This document shows positions 48,518-54,800 of a stretch of 64,000 nucleotides of DNA, in pieces. The stretch lies in the NCBI RefSeq assembly GCF_037948395.1, contig NZ_CP149940.1:4340001-4404000 (forward strand). The letters are read 5' to 3'. The DNA is from Serratia nevei. Its GTDB lineage: Bacteria > Pseudomonadota > Gammaproteobacteria > Enterobacterales > Enterobacteriaceae. The first letter of the stretch is position 1. Every line of letters begins with the position of its first letter. Below the pieces are notes generated by a model. The model did not search any database and was not told the DNA's origin. It saw only the letters and a program-made list of their open reading frames with translations. The translations under genes were made by a program, and so were the position numbers.

Positions 48518-48627
48518 ACCCGTTTCCCTGTCCCGTGCGGCGGAAAACCGACAGCGTTGAGAGGGTGCTCATGGATCTGGACGCCAACAAGCAGCAGACG
48601 GGGGACATCCCCCGTCGCCGGGTTGCC

Positions 48628-48783
48628 TTACCGTTCGGATTCGTAAGCCAAAATGGCCGCAACCTCCGTGTTGCCCGATCGGATCCGCAGCTCACACAGC
48701 GTGCTGCGGGTTATCCATGCCAGTGATATTACCGTGGCACAAATAACCACCAATTTTAACAGGCTCCGTTTGTTCGGCATCAT
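48628..48783 (-). CDS. hok: Type I toxin Hok/Gef, copy 1
   Basis: Hok toxins are small inner-membrane proteins that collapse the membrane potential when made without antisense control. The 51-residue product starts MMPNKRSLLK and has a hydrophobic segment at about residues 8-23. It ends with the family signature: LCELRIRSG near residue 29, then EVAATLAYES. This matches the LCEIRYRDG and EVAAFMAYES of plasmid R1 Hok as I recall it. AAGGAG lies 9 bases before the ATG, and the start overlaps the mok stop codon. The reading frame is intact. Confidence 0.93.
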   Translation of the reverse strand: MMPNKRSLLKLVVICATVISLAWITRSTLCELRIRSGNTEVAAILAYESER

Positions 48784-48947
48784 GCCTTCTTCTCCTTGCC
48801 TCGCGGCGGGTAAGAGGCTAACTTAACGTTGTCTGGCGTTAGAGTTGGCCTCGGGTTGATGGATATCGACTCGGGGCTTTTCTCTTTGTACCTTTCACGC
48901 AGGCTCCAGATACAAAGATCCAGAGCACCCGCGCGCAGTATATTCAT
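48780..48947 (-). CDS. mok: Mok leader reading frame, copy 1
   Basis: Mok is the overlapping leader frame whose translation is needed for hok translation; Sok acts by blocking it. The 55-codon frame starts ATG AAT ATA (MNILRAGAL) after GGAGAGG. It runs without a stop to a TGA lying inside the ATGATG of hok. The frame is also open over 55 codons in copy 2 despite several substitutions, which supports real translation. The peptide itself is not known to have a function. Confidence 0.82.
   Translation of the reverse strand: MNILRAGALDLCIWSLRERYKEKSPESISINPRPTLTPDNVKLASYPPRGKEKKA
48831..48881 (+). ncRNA. sok: Sok antisense RNA, copy 1 (predicted)
   Basis: The opposite strand of the hok leader has a promoter-like pair, TTGCCT (48796-48801), 17 bases, TAACTT (48819-48824). 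About 25 bases after that there is a hairpin rich in GCCTCGGG/CTCGGGGC, ending in TTTTCTCTTT. The predicted RNA is about 51 nt, near the size of known Sok RNAs, whose terminator hairpin looks very similar. It lies inside the mok frame. The exact ends are estimates. Confidence 0.8.
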
Positions 48948-49060
48948 CCTCTCCGTTGTCCCGTGTCCTTATTCTCTGACTCAGTTTCATTTCTGCGCAG
49001 GATTGCGCAAAGGCGTTGCAACAGGCTGAAAATCGCAGCGCGGATGGCGACAAATGAAAT

Positions 49061-49096
49061 AAAAAAAGCGGCCCCATACGATGGGAGCCGCTTTTT
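49061..49096 (-). terminator. Terminator of speB
   Basis: A stem of AAAAAGCGGC and CCAT with GCCGCTTTTT and ATGG, and a T-run on the minus strand, lies just past the speB stop. Confidence 0.85.
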
Positions 49097-49116
49097 CAGC
49101 GAGGCGTGGCCTGGCG

Positions 49117-50037
49117 TCAGGCGTGTTTCTTCGCCGCCTGCAGGTACAGCATCTCCAAGCCCAGGGTCGCCGCGGCCAGCGCGGTGATCTCGGACTGGTC
49201 ATAGGCCGGCGCCACTTCTACCACGTCCATGCCGACGATGTTCAGCGACTGCATGCCGCGCACCAGTTTCAGCGCACGATCGGAAGTCAGACCGCCGATC
49301 ACCGGCGTGCCGGTGCCCGGTGCGAACGCCGGATCCAAGCAGTCGATGTCGAAGGTCAGGTACACCGGCATATCGCCGACGATGCCTTTGATCTGGGTCA
49401 GCAGGTCGTCCACGCTGCGATCGTTCACCTGCGCAGCGTCCAGCACGGTAAAGCCGTTGTCATAATCGAACTCGGTGCGAATACCGATCTGCACCGAGTG
49501 GTGCGGATCGATCAGGCCTTCGTTCGGGGCATGGTAGAACATGGTGCCGTGGTCGAACTTGCTGCCGTTGGCGTAGGTATCGGTATGGGCGTCGAAGTGC
49601 ACCAGCGCCAGCTTGCCGAAATGCTTGGCGTGCGCGCGCAGCAGCGGCAGGGTCACGAAGTGGTCGCCGCCGAACGAGAGCATACGCTTACCGGCCTTCA
49701 GCAGTTTCTCCGCGTGCGCCTGCAGCTTGTCGCTCATGTCCTGCGCATCGCCGAAATTGAACACGATGTCGCCGCAGTCAACCACGTTCAGCCGATCGCG
49801 CAGATCGAAGCTCCACGGCCAACGGTTGCCTTCCCAGGCCAGGTTGGTAGATACCTGACGAATAGCCGCCGGGCCGTGACGGCCACCGGCGCGACCGGAG
49901 GTCGCCATGTCAAACGGAATGCCGGTGATGACCCACTCTGCATCGCTGTCGTAAGGCATGAAGTTCAGCGGAAAGCGCAGGAAACCAAAGGCGTTGGACA
50001 CTAATGAATTATCGGACTGATGGCCTAAGGTGCTCAT
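49117..50037 (-). CDS. speB: Agmatinase
   Basis: SpeB hydrolyses agmatine to putrescine and urea. The 306-residue protein has the manganese-binding motifs of the arginase/ureohydrolase family: [12 protein letters not shown] near residue 122, [12 protein letters not shown] near 148 and [17 protein letters not shown] near 228. It matches E. coli SpeB in length and follows speA. Between them lie a good promoter and a terminator-like stem-loop (separate entries), so expression may be adjusted independently of speA. Confidence 0.97.
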
Positions 50038-50090
50038 AGTAAACCCTCGTAGTTCAACAAGTTGCCAGGCGCAGACGCCGGGCCGTTACA

Positions 50091-50135
50091 AAAAAAAATC
50101 CCTCCCGCGTCGTTAGCCCGACGAGAAAGGGATTT
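50091..50135 (-). promoter_or_regulatory. Terminator-like stem-loop in the speB leader
   Basis: Arms AAATCCCT/AGGGATTT enclose an inner stem CGTCG/CGACG. On the minus strand the structure is followed by a run of eight T residues. It lies between the predicted speB promoter and the speB ATG, about 54 bases before the latter. It could end speA transcripts, act as an attenuator for speB, or both. Confidence 0.65.
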
Positions 50136-50170
50136 ATTCGATGTTTGTTTCGGTGCTACCGATACGGCAG

Positions 50171-50199
50171 ATTATGGCCGCATTTTATCCATGCTTCAA
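50171..50199 (-). promoter_or_regulatory. Predicted speB promoter
   Basis: On the minus strand TTGAAG (50194-50199) and CATAAT (50171-50176) are separated by 17 bases, a good sigma-70 match. Transcription would begin near 50164 and give a leader of about 127 nt before speB. Confidence 0.65.
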
Positions 50200-50231
50200 G
50201 GGGGCCGATATCGCCCCCCTGAAGAGGGCGG

Positions 50232-52208
50232 TTACTCGTCTTCCAGATACGTGTAGCCGTACAGGCCGGCCTCAAACTCTTCCAGGAACTGCGCCTGCAG
50301 CTCGCTGTCCAGATCGGTTTCTTTGACCTGATCGCGGAATTTGGCCAGCAGCGCACTCGGATCGAGCTGCACGTACTCCAACATGTCCGCCACGGTGTCG
50401 CCCTCGTCGGACAGTTCGGTCTCGACGCTGCCGTCCGGGAACACATACACGTCAACCGAGGCGGTATCGCCGAACAGGTTGTGCATGTTGCCGAGGATCT
50501 CCTGGTACGCACCGACCATGAAGAAGCCCAGCGCCGGCGGGTTCTCCGGATCGTACGGCGGCATCGGCATGGTGGTCGCCACGCCGTCGCCATCGACATA
50601 GTGGTCGATGGTGCCGTCGGAGTCGCAGGTGATGTCGAGCAGCACCGCGCGGCCTTCCGGCGGCTTATCCAGCCCTTCCAGCGGCAGCACCGGGAACAGC
50701 TGATCGATACCCCAGGCATCCGGCATCGACTGGAACAGCGAGAAGTTGACGTAGAACTTGTCCGCCATGCGTTCTTGCAGTTCGTCAATGATCGGACGGT
50801 GCGCGCGGTTGCTCGGATCGAGCTGCTGCTGGATCTTGTTGCAGATGTTCAGATACAGCTGCTCGGCCCAGGCGCGCTTGGTCAGATCCAGCATGCCGTG
50901 CGCGTATTGGGTATGCACGTCGTGCAGATCCATCTGGCTGTCGTGCAGCCATTCGCGCAGCGAGCGGCGGTTCTCCGGCTCGTTCATTTCCAGCCAGGTT
51001 TCCCACATGCTTTCCAGCGCGCGCGGCGCGTCGGCTTCCGGCGGCAGCGGTTCGCTGAACTCGTTGCGCTCTACGCCGATCACGTTGGAGACCAGCACCG
51101 TGTGGTGCGCGGTCACGGCGCGGCCGGACTCGGTGATCACCGTCGGGTGCGGCAGGCCGTGTTCGTTACAGGCGTCGCCGATGCCCCAAATCACGTTGTT
51201 GGCGTATTCGTTCAGGCCGTAGTTCACCGAGCAGTCGGACTGCGAGCGGGTGCCTTCGTAGTCGACGCCCAAACCGCCGCCCACGTCGAAGCACTGAATG
51301 TTGACGCCCAGCTTGTGCAGTTCAACGTAGAAGCGCGCCGATTCGCGCACGCCGGTGGCGATGTCGCGAATGTTGGCCAGCTGCGAGCCCAGGTGGAAGT
51401 GCAGCAGTTGCAGGCTGTCGAGACGGCCCGCTTCGCGCAGGGTCTCTACCAGCTTCAGCACCTGCACCGCCGCCAGGCCGAACTTGGATTTTTCGCCGCC
51501 GCTCGACTGCCATTTGCCGGAGCCCTGCGAAGCCAGACGCGCACGCACGCCCAGGCGTGGTATGACGTTCAACCGTTCGGCTTCTTCCAGCACCAGGTTG
51601 ATCTCGGACATCTTCTCGATCACCAGGTACACCTTGTGCCCCAGTTTTTCCCCGATCAGCGCCAGGCGAATGTATTCACGATCTTTATAGCCGTTACAGA
51701 CGATCACCGAGCGGGTCATGCCGGCATGCGCCAGCACCGCCATCAGCTCGGCCTTGGAGCCGGCTTCCAGCCCCAGCGGTTCCCCGGAGTTCACCAGCGA
51801 CTCAATCACGCGGCGATGTTGGTTTACCTTGATCGGATACACCAGGAAATAGCCGCCCTGGTAACCGAAGGACTCACGCGCGCGTTTGAACGCGGCGTTG
51901 ATCGAACGCAAGCGATGCTGGAGGATCTGCGGGAAGCAGAACAGCGCAGGCAAACGCTGCCCGTCTTGCTGGCGCGTTTTCACCAGTTCTGCCAGATCGA
52001 CGCGCGCCTGCGGGACATCCGGGTCCGGGCACACGCTGATATGGCCCAGCTCGTTGACGTCATAGTAATTGTTGCCCCAGTAGGCGACGTTATAAGTGCG
52101 CAGCATCTTGCTGGCATTACGATCATTCATGGCAACCTCCTGCATGGAGCGCAAAGATAAAGACTCGCCCGCAACCGGCGGGCGGTGAATCAACAGATCA
52201 TCAGACAT
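50232..52208 (-). CDS. speA: Biosynthetic arginine decarboxylase
   Basis: SpeA decarboxylates arginine to agmatine, the first step of the arginine route to putrescine, using pyridoxal phosphate. The 658 residues equal the E. coli length and align throughout. The PLP lysine lies in [14 protein letters not shown] near residue 127, the C-terminal active-site region includes [10 protein letters not shown], and the end is [10 protein letters not shown]. The frame extends seven codons upstream, but [12 protein letters not shown] matches the E. coli start. That start lies inside the end of yqgB, implying coupled translation. Confidence 0.97.
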
Positions 52209-52344
52209 GGTTCGCCTCACATTCCGCACTGACGAAACCGTCAGCCACTATCGCAGCTACAACCCGCGAGAACAACCCAACAAGCCGCGCTGACGGCAGC
52301 GAAGAGAACTGCCGTTCGCGGTCAGCGATCGGTTTATCACTCAT
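52201..52344 (-). CDS. yqgB: Small protein YqgB, overlapping speA
   Basis: A 47-residue frame directly upstream of speA, overlapping its start by 8 bases. It begins [16 protein letters not shown] and contains [15 protein letters not shown]. This aligns with remembered E. coli YqgB (KPVAQLERQ, then GLLSQFQAAIV and F), which occupies the same place. The end differs: this copy finishes AECEANHV. E. coli YqgB has no firmly known function; its position suggests a role in speA expression. The ribosome-binding site is weak. Confidence 0.8.
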
Positions 52345-52939
52345 ATAATTGTAAGACACCCTGTTCAAACCTCGTGAATCGGGCCAAGAAACATCCCACA
52401 GGAAGGCTGCAGGCTACCCTTGTTCAGTTCTTCAGACGACCGTTAGCCGGCCCGAGAATCCTGAGTAGCGGCCAAGTGTTTATCGCACCTGGTAAGTGAC
52501 AGAGAGACAAGACGGGAAATAGCAGAAGAATGTGCGCCAGAACGGCACTGCTGTTGGGAGCCAACAACCGGTAGACAACGGATCATTAATCCAACCACCT
52601 CCACGCGCGCCGTTCGGAGTGAACGACCCAGCCTCTAAAATAGTGTAAGAACGTGACCGTTCGATGAAGCGGCGGCGCTCACGGCGAACGCCTGCGACGG
52701 ATAATAGCGCAACGCCGGCGAATGCAAAGCGGAAGTTTATCGCACCTTCCCCACCGCCAATCGCCGTACTGTGCAGCAAATGAACCGCGCGCGCAGTTTA
52801 TACCGGTAAGCAGGTGAAAAAGCAAAATGAAAATTCGCCGAAAACTGTTTCAAGCGATGAAAATGGCGCCAACCCGTTTGCGCAAAAGAGCGAAAGCGCA
52901 AAAAATTACTGGCAATCTGGCTAAACCCTGACCTAAAAT
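52345..52939. other. Leader and upstream region of yqgB-speA
   Basis: This stretch between yqgB and the metK promoter holds the likely speA promoter on the minus strand (TATTAT at 52701-52706, with TTGCAT or TTTGCA upstream at 15-16 bases). That would give a leader of about 350 nt before yqgB. It also contains the doubtful 99-codon frame listed separately. Apart from these I see nothing definite. The long leader may hold regulatory RNA structure that I could not resolve by eye. Confidence 0.5.
52480..52779 (-). CDS. Doubtful 99-codon frame upstream of speA
   Basis: An open frame starting MLHSTAIGGGEGAINFRFAF contains an arginine-rich stretch (GVRRERRRFIERSRSYTI) and ends SVTYQVR. It overlaps the predicted speA promoter, which would lie inside it, and has no good ribosome-binding site. 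It occupies the place of the poorly supported E. coli yqgC/yqgD frames. I would not call it a gene without expression data. Confidence 0.2.
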   Translation of the reverse strand: MLHSTAIGGGEGAINFRFAFAGVALLSVAGVRRERRRFIERSRSYTILEAGSFTPNGARGGGWINDPLSTGCWLPTAVPFWRTFFCYFPSCLSVTYQVR

Positions 52940-52968
52940 AGACGTCCAGATGTTAATCCATCTATACT
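52939..52968 (+). promoter_or_regulatory. metK promoter with MetJ boxes
   Basis: Tandem 8-bp units AGACGTCC, AGATGTTA and ATCCATCT (52940-52963) approximate the MetJ consensus AGACGTCT. They overlap a -10 box TATACT (52963-52968) and a -35-like TAGACG. MetJ with S-adenosylmethionine would repress metK here, as known in E. coli. The leader to the start codon is about 140 nt. Confidence 0.72.
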
Positions 52969-53116
52969 GGTTAACTGATAAACTGCTTAACGGCTTTGCC
53001 TGAGGGGCGTTGCAGGATGCATCTCGCGCCATCAGCGGAAGACCCTTCGCTTTGATGCCGGATCTCCAGCGCTGTGCAGTAATTTCTAACCCGTCTTATG
53101 CAAGGTAAAGAACACA

Positions 53117-54271
53117 ATGGCTAAACACCTCTTCACGTCCGAATCCGTCTCCGAAGGACATCCCGATAAAATCGCCGATCAGATCTCCGATGCCGTCCTC
53201 GACGCCATCCTGGAACAGGATCCGAAAGCGCGCGTCGCCTGCGAAACCTACGTTAAAACCGGCATGGTGCTGGTCGGCGGTGAAATCACCACCAGCGCCT
53301 GGGTCGATATCGAAGAGATCACCCGCAAAACCGTACGCGAAATCGGCTACGTTCATTCGGACATGGGCTTTGACGCCAACTCCTGCGCAGTATTGAGCGC
53401 CATCGGCAAACAATCCCCGGATATCAATCAGGGCGTTGACCGTACCGATCCTCTCGAGCAGGGCGCCGGCGATCAGGGCTTGATGTTTGGCTACGCCACC
53501 AACGAAACCGACGTGCTGATGCCGGCTCCGGTGACCTACGCGCACCGTCTGGTGCAGCGCCAGTCCGAAGTGCGCAAAAACGGCACCCTGCCGTGGCTGC
53601 GTCCGGACGCGAAGAGCCAGGTGACCTTCCAATACGACGACGGCAAAATCGTCGGTATCGACGCCGTGGTGCTGTCCACTCAGCATTCCGAAGACATCAC
53701 GCTGAAAGATCTGCAAGAAGCGGTGATGGAAGAGATCATTAAACCGGTCCTGCCGGCGGAATGGCTGACGGCGGGCACAAAATACCACATCAACCCGACC
53801 GGCCGTTTCGTTATCGGCGGCCCGATGGGCGACTGCGGTCTGACCGGCCGTAAGATCATCGTCGACACCTACGGCGGCATGGCGCGCCACGGCGGCGGCG
53901 CCTTCTCCGGTAAGGATCCGTCCAAGGTTGACCGTTCCGCGGCTTACGCGGCGCGCTACGTGGCGAAAAACATCGTCGCCGCCGGCCTGGCCGATCGCTG
54001 CGAGATCCAGGTGTCTTACGCTATCGGCGTAGCGGAACCGACCTCCATCATGGTGGAAACCTTCGGTACCGAGAAAGTGCCAACCGAACAGCTGACGCTG
54101 CTGGTGCGCGAATTCTTCGATCTGCGCCCATACGGCCTGATCCAGATGATGGATCTGCTGCAGCCGATCTACCGCGAAACTGCTGCCTACGGCCACTTCG
54201 GCCGCGAGCACTTCCCATGGGAAGCGACTGACAAAGCCGCGCTGCTGCGCGATGCCGCCGGCCTGAAATAA
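53117..54271 (+). CDS. metK: S-adenosylmethionine synthetase
   Basis: MetK joins methionine and ATP to give S-adenosylmethionine. The 384-residue protein equals the E. coli length and shows the N-terminal [17 protein letters not shown], the methionine-loop region [17 protein letters not shown] and the P-loop-like [19 protein letters not shown]. It is divergent from yqgB-speA as in E. coli. MetJ boxes lie upstream and a strong terminator downstream. The gene is normally essential, which constrains any recombination between the flanking repeats. Confidence 0.98.
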
Positions 54272-54288
54272 GCCCCGACATCAACATG

Positions 54289-54320
54289 AAAACGGCGAGC
54301 CTGGGCTCGCCGTTTTTTTT
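54289..54320 (+). terminator. Terminator of metK
   Basis: The stem AAAACGGCGAGC/GCTCGCCGTTTT with a short loop is followed by a run of T residues. Confidence 0.92.
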
Positions 54321-54395
54321 AAGCGGATGGGTGCTCCCGGATCAACGCAGCGACTTGCCGGCAAGCGGAGGCAAAGCCCCCGCTGCCGGGTTGCC

Positions 54396-54551
54396 TTACC
54401 GTTCGGATTCGTAAGCCAAAATGGCCGCAACCTCCGTGTTGCCCGATCGGATCCGCAGCTCACACAGCGTGCTGCGGGTTATCCATGCCAGTGATATTAC
54501 CGTGGCACAAATAACCACCAATTTTAACAGGCTCCGTTTGTTCGGCATCAT
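54396..54551 (-). CDS. hok: Type I toxin Hok/Gef, copy 2
   Basis: A second 51-residue Hok, identical in DNA to copy 1 over the whole frame, with the same AAGGAG ribosome-binding site and the same overlap with mok. The conserved Cys30 and the C-terminal EVAATLAYES are present. Identity of the toxin genes contrasts with the changed antisense region, which points to recent duplication or gene conversion. It lies between convergent metK and fhuB. Confidence 0.93.
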   Translation of the reverse strand: MMPNKRSLLKLVVICATVISLAWITRSTLCELRIRSGNTEVAAILAYESER

Positions 54552-54715
54552 GCCTTCTTCTCCTTGCCTCGCGGCGGGTAAGAGGCTAACTTAACGTTGT
54601 CACGCGTTAGAGTAGGCCTCGGGTTGATGGATATCGACTCGGGGCTTTTCTCTTTATCTCTTTCGCACGGGCTCCAGAGACAAAGATCCAGAGCACCCGC
54701 CCGCAGTATATTCAT
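54548..54715 (-). CDS. mok: Mok leader reading frame, copy 2
   Basis: A 55-codon frame ending inside the hok start, as in copy 1. It differs from the copy 1 peptide at five places near residues 13-20 and 38 (for example SPCERDKEK against SLRERYKEK). The ATG follows GGTGAG. The frame is open further upstream to 54856, but the ATG at 54715 is the start shared by both copies. Confidence 0.82.
   Translation of the reverse strand: MNILRAGALDLCLWSPCERDKEKSPESISINPRPTLTRDNVKLASYPPRGKEKKA
54599..54649 (+). ncRNA. sok: Sok antisense RNA, copy 2 (predicted)
   Basis: It has the same promoter-like pair as copy 1 (TTGCCT 54564-54569, 17 bases, TAACTT 54587-54592) and the same terminator hairpin ending in TTTTCTCTTT. 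The 5' tail differs: GTCACGCG here against GTCTGGCG in copy 1, and GAGTAGG against GAGTTGG. The tail is the part that first contacts the target in known Sok RNAs. The ends are estimates. Confidence 0.8.
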
Positions 54716-54800
54716 CTCACCACCACGCCACGTGTTCCTTTTCGCACGCAATATCGTTTTTGCGCAACCGCTCGCAGTGCCTTGCAACACCCTGAAAAAT

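Follow-up and report, generated by a model that had tools for sequence, protein, structure and literature searches.

In the hok/sok locus of plasmid R1 and in the Escherichia coli chromosomal loci hokB and hokC, a Hok protein is encoded by an mRNA with a sokT hairpin and paired tac and fbi elements, and the 5′ end of the Sok RNA lies opposite the hairpin loop (in part after a 2014 review, PMC4147584). The accessible part of that review also describes the function of chromosomal hok/sok copies as unresolved. Here we compare these systems with two hok/sok loci, at sites termed A and B, in a 64,000-nucleotide (nt) stretch of Serratia nevei DNA (contig NZ_CP149940.1, positions 4,340,001 to 4,404,000; hereafter the window); the replicon, 5.35 Mb long, is the chromosome of a Serratia belonging to the S. 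marcescens complex. Our data suggest that the two loci are paralogs with different sokT loops and that each Sok would mainly silence its own hok, a reading that sequence comparison and folding models make likely in our judgment.

By sequence, these are paralogous chromosomal hok/sok type I toxin-antitoxin loci, ordinary as such. The original prediction, made from the letters of the window alone, described an intact 51-codon hok with the Hok C-terminal signature in both copies, and the genes and their family membership are confirmed: the open reading frames (ORFs) encode the same 51 residues, their coding sequences (CDSs) show zero differences in the window genome, and each protein far exceeds the PF01848 (HOK_GEF) cut-off of 22 bits.

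48628 to 48783, minus strand: hok at site A, 51 codons plus stop, PF01848 67.1 bits
54396 to 54551, minus strand: hok at site B, 51 codons plus stop, protein identical to that of site A, PF01848 67.1 bits

The Rfam model RF01794 also matches at both loci (91.1 and 85.3 bits), and given these scores together with conservation in relatives, the two loci are not chance resemblances. The model is named 'sok', and its matches (48778-48930 and 54546-54698, minus strand) lie on the hok-mRNA strand, extending from the putative transcript start as far as the start codon of hok; it thus models the hok leader, not the opposite-strand Sok RNA. The site-A and site-B repeats align over 48609-49032 and 54377-54798 with 89.7% identity. 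With 5768 bases between the putative transcript starts (48930 and 54698), the claim of two structurally complete hok/sok loci 5.8 kb apart was borne out, except for its mok component (discussed below). Once the 3′ fbi elements are included the loci cover about 48563-48942 (A) and 54329-54710 (B), each extending left to its fbi element (48563 and 54329), beyond the coordinates given in the original prediction. That such genes would easily be missed is true of both NCBIfam Hok models, which stay below cut-off (57.6 versus 73 and 55.7 versus 89), and untrue of Pfam and Rfam, which find both loci. A profile search found four HOK_GEF matches in the genome, two more than had been noted. The further two loci (C1:3617021 and C1:894058) each have a leader and a sokT-like hairpin, and the sokT loops of all four are mutually different.

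The two copies in the window differ at the site on the hok mRNA where Sok recognition is expected, a difference absent from the earlier claims.

48814 to 48852, minus strand: sokT hairpin at site A, loop CCAGACAA at 48829-48836
54582 to 54620, minus strand: sokT hairpin at site B, loop CGTGACAA at 54597-54604

Across a sample of 30 Serratia genomes (window genome counted), the A and B loops, 7-8 nt long, differ in all 12 genomes that have both sites. Site A carries CCAGACAA in five genomes, CCAGCAA in six and CCCAACAA in one, and site B carries CGTGACAA in four, CATCACAA in four, CACGACAA in three and CGTCACAA in one. Summed over the A/B pairs, 27 of 100 loop sites differ, compared with 131 of 3511 in leader plus CDS and 25 of 561 third codon positions; when G003, a genome whose row is distorted by a premature stop, is omitted, the loop and leader plus CDS totals become 25/91 and 120/3219. 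Loops of single-copy site-B loci are identical to A loops in 15/72 comparisons and to B loops in 0/72, so it seems to be the copy at the old site (B) that changed. A rule that the loops carry a U-turn (UNR) motif was judged by eye only and rejected, many loops, that of site A included, being without UNR.

The same pattern recurs outside this pair. A PF01848 profile search of Enterobacteriaceae gave a match in 101 of 295 genomes, and a number of these genomes hold arrays of two or three neighbouring hok/sok units, mostly ~0.45-0.7 kb apart. Paralog clusters were picked by eye among the matches listed, as copies lying close together, to which were added some pairs from within one genome (G199, G336, the two G155 pairs counted jointly, and a single copy in each of G100, G121 and G349), and, except for G002 and G012, before their loops were known; a diverged fourth G121 copy (2104780) and G242, with two matches 15 kb apart, were left out. 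Loops were readable in 116 of 118 loci of this first set (the two without a hairpin were dropped), and 10 of 35 loci were dropped from a second set for the same reason. Over 30 minimum-spanning contrasts in 18 clusters (16 of them non-Serratia), 62 of 251 loop sites differ (24.7%), against 290/8746 in leader plus CDS (3.3%), 89/1525 third positions (5.8%) and 89/1509 in the 3′ untranslated region (3′UTR; 5.9%), and loops are identical in 2 of the 30 contrasts where 23.0 would be expected at a common rate. The 16 non-Serratia clusters taken separately give 58/229 (25.3%) for the loop, 281/7860 (3.6%) for leader plus CDS, 86/1372 (6.3%) for third positions and 84/1357 for the 3′UTR, with identical loops in 1/27. 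Two cases are extreme: leader and CDS are identical in G122, with 3 differences in the loop and 13 in the 3′UTR, and the three copies of G221 differ at 2 to 6 positions of leader and CDS and at 3 of the loop. Replication in six further clusters found the loop shared in 0/8 pairs. A short variable segment, the candidate recognition site, thus differs between otherwise similar copies in 12/12 A/B pairs and in 50/52 pairs from the 24 clusters besides A/B, being shared in the remaining 2/52.

Loops change between orthologs as well, with identity in 25/66 comparisons at site A, 15/66 at site B, and 14/45 (marcescens-group) or 18/171 (genus-wide) at site C. This is what would be seen if the loop were simply the least constrained part of the locus or a mutation hotspot, diverging neutrally while the Soks cross-react freely. 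A shuffle of the 116 loops among genomes fits that account too, the observed within-genome sharing of 2 not departing significantly from the 2.8 expected (P = 0.47), and because this plain shuffle is not significant, the deficit in loop sharing is visible only with relatedness accounted for. When divergence is matched (at most 5 third-position differences), the loop is identical in 58 of 193 ortholog pairs, all Serratia, and in only 2 of 53 paralog pairs; Fisher's P of 2e-5 for this contrast is indicative only, because the pairs are not independent. Between paralogs in the clusters, moreover, the loop diverges roughly four times as much as third codon positions or the 3′UTR. Outside Serratia, loops are kept across species in 8/11 hand-picked ortholog pairs, and two species of one genus retain the same three array loops even though their CDSs differ by 8-15 nt between species and 2-6 nt within them, which speaks against mere hypermutation; in another array, matched by position, loops were kept in only 4/9 ortholog pairs and differed in 5/9. 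Taken together, we regard a neutral loop with freely cross-reacting Soks as unlikely, and return to silencing by a locus-specific Sok.

The loop matters in this reading through its copy in Sok, for which candidate genes lie on the opposite strand.

48796 to 48824, plus strand: Sok promoter at site A, -35 TTGCCT, 17 bp, -10 TAACTT, assigned by comparison with K-12
54564 to 54592, plus strand: Sok promoter at site B, same sequence as site A
48831 to 48886, plus strand: predicted Sok RNA at site A, 5′ end by homology, 3′ end approximate, terminator stem 48847-48878
54599 to 54654, plus strand: predicted Sok RNA at site B, 5′ end by homology, 3′ end approximate

A promoter and terminator for a Sok-like RNA had been claimed here. 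The promoter region has the blocks TTCTCCTTG and TAAGAGGC in common with K-12 sokC, and CTCCTTG and TAAGAGGC with sokB, in each case with spacing within 1-2 nt; the terminator was found at 48847-48878 (plus strand) by a scan at site A only, and the site-B Sok folds alike. A consensus scan did not recover the promoter, as detailed below, and the RNA itself is predicted at ~56 nt from 48831 instead of ~51 nt. Each Sok would consist of a free ~10-nt tail followed by a terminator hairpin. The annotated 5′ ends of K-12 SokC and SokB face the loop, at a distance of 1-2 nt from its 3′ end, and the loop is therefore copied into the Sok 5′ tail. A Sok gene with a promoter-like sequence, a 5′ tail opposite the sokT loop and a terminator is thus recognizable by sequence. 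For the A/B pairs, predicted tail/loop energies average -13.9 kcal/mol for cognate and -4.4 kcal/mol for non-cognate combinations; non-cognate pairing is weaker in 24/24 directions, which is partly true by construction, the size of the difference being the informative part.

The features of the hok mRNA could be placed from an alignment of 35 loci.

48937 to 48942, minus strand: hok -10 box TATACT at site A, assigned from the alignment, missed by the consensus scan
54705 to 54710, minus strand: hok -10 box TATACT at site B, assigned from the alignment
48917 to 48930, minus strand: putative hok transcript start (48930) and 5′ tac at site A
54685 to 54698, minus strand: putative hok transcript start (54698) and 5′ tac at site B
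48563 to 48577, minus strand: 3′ fbi-like element at site A, tac pairing P = 0.98
54329 to 54343, minus strand: 3′ fbi-like element at site B, tac pairing P = 0.98

The -10 box reads TATACT in 32 of the 35 loci and TAGACT in three. Six nucleotides after TATACT comes GGGTGCTCTGGATC, and the opening base of the Rfam match (48930) is taken as the transcript start; an element GATCC..GAGCACCC, ~50 nt past the hok stop, is complementary to the transcript 5′ end. In folding calculations the tac-fbi pairing probability is 0.98 in both the 368- and 370-nt transcripts and 0.00 once the last 20 nt are removed, and the sokT loop becomes more accessible on truncation, its unpaired probability rising from 0.64 to 0.99 at A and from 0.11 to 0.81 at B. 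Across 30 Serratia loci (site A, site B and single-copy site B), tac-fbi pairing reaches 0.85-0.99 in 30/30 and falls to at most 0.01 without the 3′ end, and the truncated mRNA leaves the loop unpaired at 0.7 or more in 26/30. Tac/fbi pairing and the release of sokT by truncation are thus both predicted, with a partial opening of the Shine-Dalgarno (SD) sequence: the folding model reproduces the metastable design known for hok mRNA, with the start region partially opened.

The ORFs, their conservation, the refolding, the loop difference and the pairing energies are read or computed from the sequence, and they fit the following scheme. Each locus would make a stable hok mRNA, encoding a presumed toxin, that is kept silent by 5′ tac pairing with 3′ fbi. 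Loss of the 3′ end by processing would cause refolding, exposing the sokT loop and loosening the hok start region. Sok, made from its own promoter, would begin pairing at the sokT loop through its unpaired 5′ tail and so block translation. Since different loops mean different Sok tails, each Sok should then mainly silence its own hok mRNA.

Besides the ortholog variation, the position-matched array and the non-significant shuffle given above, several observations weigh against this scheme. The refolding is partial: the site-A loop is already unpaired at 0.64 before truncation, and in the truncated mRNAs two guanines of the SD remain base-paired (unpaired 0.08-0.11) while the stretch from SD to ATG loosens. 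The four loci whose loop is not freed by truncation (G003, G005, G013 and G021) are all site-A copies with a 7-nt loop, and the loops of G014 and G029 are open at full length too. The consensus promoter scan (48520-49115) missed both the Sok and the hok promoter and reported one other site. Sok-A and Sok-B still have ~40 identical bases outside the tail. Between A and B the 3′UTR is as diverged as the loop (137/500 versus 25/91, G003 omitted). Loops are shared in G199 and by two of the three G002 copies, and G312, one of 11 other clusters for which energies were computed, shows strong non-cognate pairing in one direction (-13.2 versus -15.4). Finally, the pairs counted within a class are not independent. 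Even with these points, locus-specific silencing remains our preferred reading. With somewhat more reserve, we lean towards a general form of it, in which the sokT loop would serve as an address across the Enterobacteriaceae and selection after duplication on a chromosome would drive the loops, and with them the Sok 5′ tails, apart while leaving the remainder of the copies alike, yielding mutually independent modules.

One component of the R1 design is not clearly kept at A and B, judging from the frames upstream of hok.

48780 to 48839, minus strand: mok-like ACG frame at site A, 19 codons plus stop, overlapping the hok start
54548 to 54607, minus strand: mok-like ACG frame at site B, 19 codons plus stop, overlapping the hok start

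A 55-codon mok overlapping the start of hok had been proposed. That ORF exists, and its ATG (48947) lies 17 nt upstream of the putative transcript start (48930), adjoining the hok -10 box. At its start the 35 aligned loci have ATG (22), GTG (8) or another codon (5), and start and open frame to hok are kept together in only 17 of the 35 (17/24 A/B copies and 0/11 other loci); we therefore consider it doubtful as mok. In K-12 mokC the start is an ATG directly before the loop, and the codon at this position is ATG in all 60 non-Serratia loci of the first set. It is ACG in 41 of 56 Serratia loci, including every A and B copy, so that neither copy in the window has an AUG-initiated, hok-coupled leader ORF at the Sok target, although in both the ACG frame still terminates over the hok start. 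Six site-A relatives have a loop one base shorter, and there the ACG frame ends 37 nt before hok. The ACG codon and this early stop are the grounds for doubting R1-type coupling. In 31 of the 60 non-Serratia loci the mok frame enters hok in-frame, and translation from the mok ATG would therefore yield an N-terminally extended Hok.

Mok translation is absolutely required for hok according to the accessible part of the 2014 review (PMC4147584), and the part available of PMC11228461 restates this need. On that basis, and with ATG so regular outside Serratia, translation of hok here might depend on a mok start at the near-cognate ACG, leaving the loci weakened and quasi-silent. However, ATG is not universal, since the 25 loci of the second non-Serratia set comprise 16 with ATG, one with ACG and 8 with neither. 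The opposite hairpin arm also covaries with the codon (ATG-CAT, ACG-CGT), and the retention of ACG with its CGT partner in the genus implies that ACG may be tolerated or mok dispensable here. Moreover, hok has an AAGGAG of its own 8 nt before its ATG. Quasi-silence is in our view possible, though doubtful, and does not displace locus-specific silencing as the reading we favour.

The history of the loci could be traced in the 30 Serratia genomes. The search for this Hok in related genomes, suggested with the original prediction, returned a match in 25/30. Site B, a Hok match beside metK, is found in 23/30 (two of them, G008 and G028, weak or partial), and site A is occupied in 12/30, the same 12 that hold the A/B pair. 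In a tree of 36 loci with the loop removed, the A and B copies form one group (support 100/99) next to the single-copy site-B loci, with A and B split by one change (50/89); because of this group and this split, the duplication that gave A most likely preceded the divergence of the 12 genomes. These sequences thus indicate that site B, downstream of metK, is most likely the older in Serratia and site A a duplicate from the ancestor of the S. marcescens complex. Concerted evolution as a general cause of the identical Hok copies was rejected: A-B CDS differences average 4.83 within and 5.34 between genomes, which is not significant (permutation P = 0.087), and A and B lie on opposite sides of one tree branch (50/89). 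The identical hok core in the window genome may reflect local gene conversion. A recent plasmid origin was rejected as well: 2794 plasmid records match site A in part, none with one place covering 80% of it, and the best 15 of the 2794 cover 65% of the locus at 69.3% identity, so this collection yielded no plasmid copy of site A.

Could the loci be left over from plasmid addiction modules, now decaying and functionless? The hok of site A in G003 has a premature TAG stop, the 7-nt loop cuts short the ACG frame in 6/12 site-A copies as described, and constraint on the protein is modest, B-B pairs differing at 5.18 nt of the CDS of which 2.20 fall at third positions. Yet hok is open in 23 of the 24 A/B copies, the hairpin stems, tac and fbi are conserved, and stem bases covary in the ATG-CAT and ACG-CGT manner already noted, so we consider decay quite unlikely. 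The statement that hok loci of laboratory E. coli are often damaged fits the annotation of MG1655, where IS186 lies beside hokC and hokE; the companion view, that both Serratia copies look functional, is compatible with the intact ORFs and predicted tac/fbi pairing.

Around the loci, the gene order (names read from ORFs) is MFS transporter, hok (site A), speB, speA, metK, hok (site B) and fhuB. In G018 and G024, ~3.5 kb separates speB from speA, versus ~0.2 kb in the window, and metK of G022 (C2:3267761-3268913) is apparently split into two overlapping pieces with a TGA inside the second, through either a sequencing error or a genuine break. A Hok-like match (44%) also appeared in a metagenome-assembled 'Candidatus Hydrothermarchaeum' contig, where a binning error is possible.

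A loop that diverges faster than third positions or 3′UTR between copies, yet is kept much more often by Serratia orthologs, would point to selection acting on Sok specificity and thereby to working loci; selection would be the cause of the loop difference in our preferred reading. If the loop is indeed an address, loss of one module would not be rescued by the Sok of another, and chromosomal hok/sok copies would persist because they work as addiction or alarm modules and would not be remnants. The loops would also provide a natural set of small antisense tails, possibly mutually independent. We view the recurring loop divergence between paralogs as the unusual feature of these sequences and as a candidate, testable sign of modules kept independent. 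It was unreported in the titles and abstract openings of the literature searched, a scope outside which most subscription papers fell. 'The hok mRNA family' (reportedly Steif and Meyer 2012), a phrase that occurs in three other papers, may hold related remarks. Within the accessible parts of PMC10305079, on cross-interactions, and PMC8621323, on hokW-sokW, hok/sok specificity data were not found. For Serratia sp. ATCC 39006, the accessible part of PMC7725324 places the seven reported type I toxins in the SymE family.

Compared with R1 and E. coli, the Serratia loci differ in having ACG, not ATG, at the mok start position and in placing two near-identical copies with different loops on one chromosome. 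The Ibs/Sib repeats of E. coli resemble them in forming a type I family that exists in multiple copies and recognizes its targets through short domains (accessible part of PMC4147584). Unlike in hok/sok, the Ibs/Sib antitoxin covers the whole toxin CDS. Nor is Ibs/Sib known to have a metastable tac/fbi mRNA. In the antisense RNAs that control plasmid copy number, a short loop likewise sets antisense specificity and incompatibility, though these RNAs control replication, not a toxin. The zorO-orzO/zorP-orzP pair of E. coli O157:H7 is, like sites A and B, a duplicated type I locus with a short discriminating antitoxin segment: three nucleotides at V1, in the antitoxin 5′ region, determine which of the copies is repressed, as established by experiment (accessible part of PMC3919570). 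Its toxin and RNA are unrelated to those of hok/sok, and it is one pair, whereas the loop divergence recurs across clusters; by analogy, it offers the nearest experimental precedent for the loop-based specificity proposed here.

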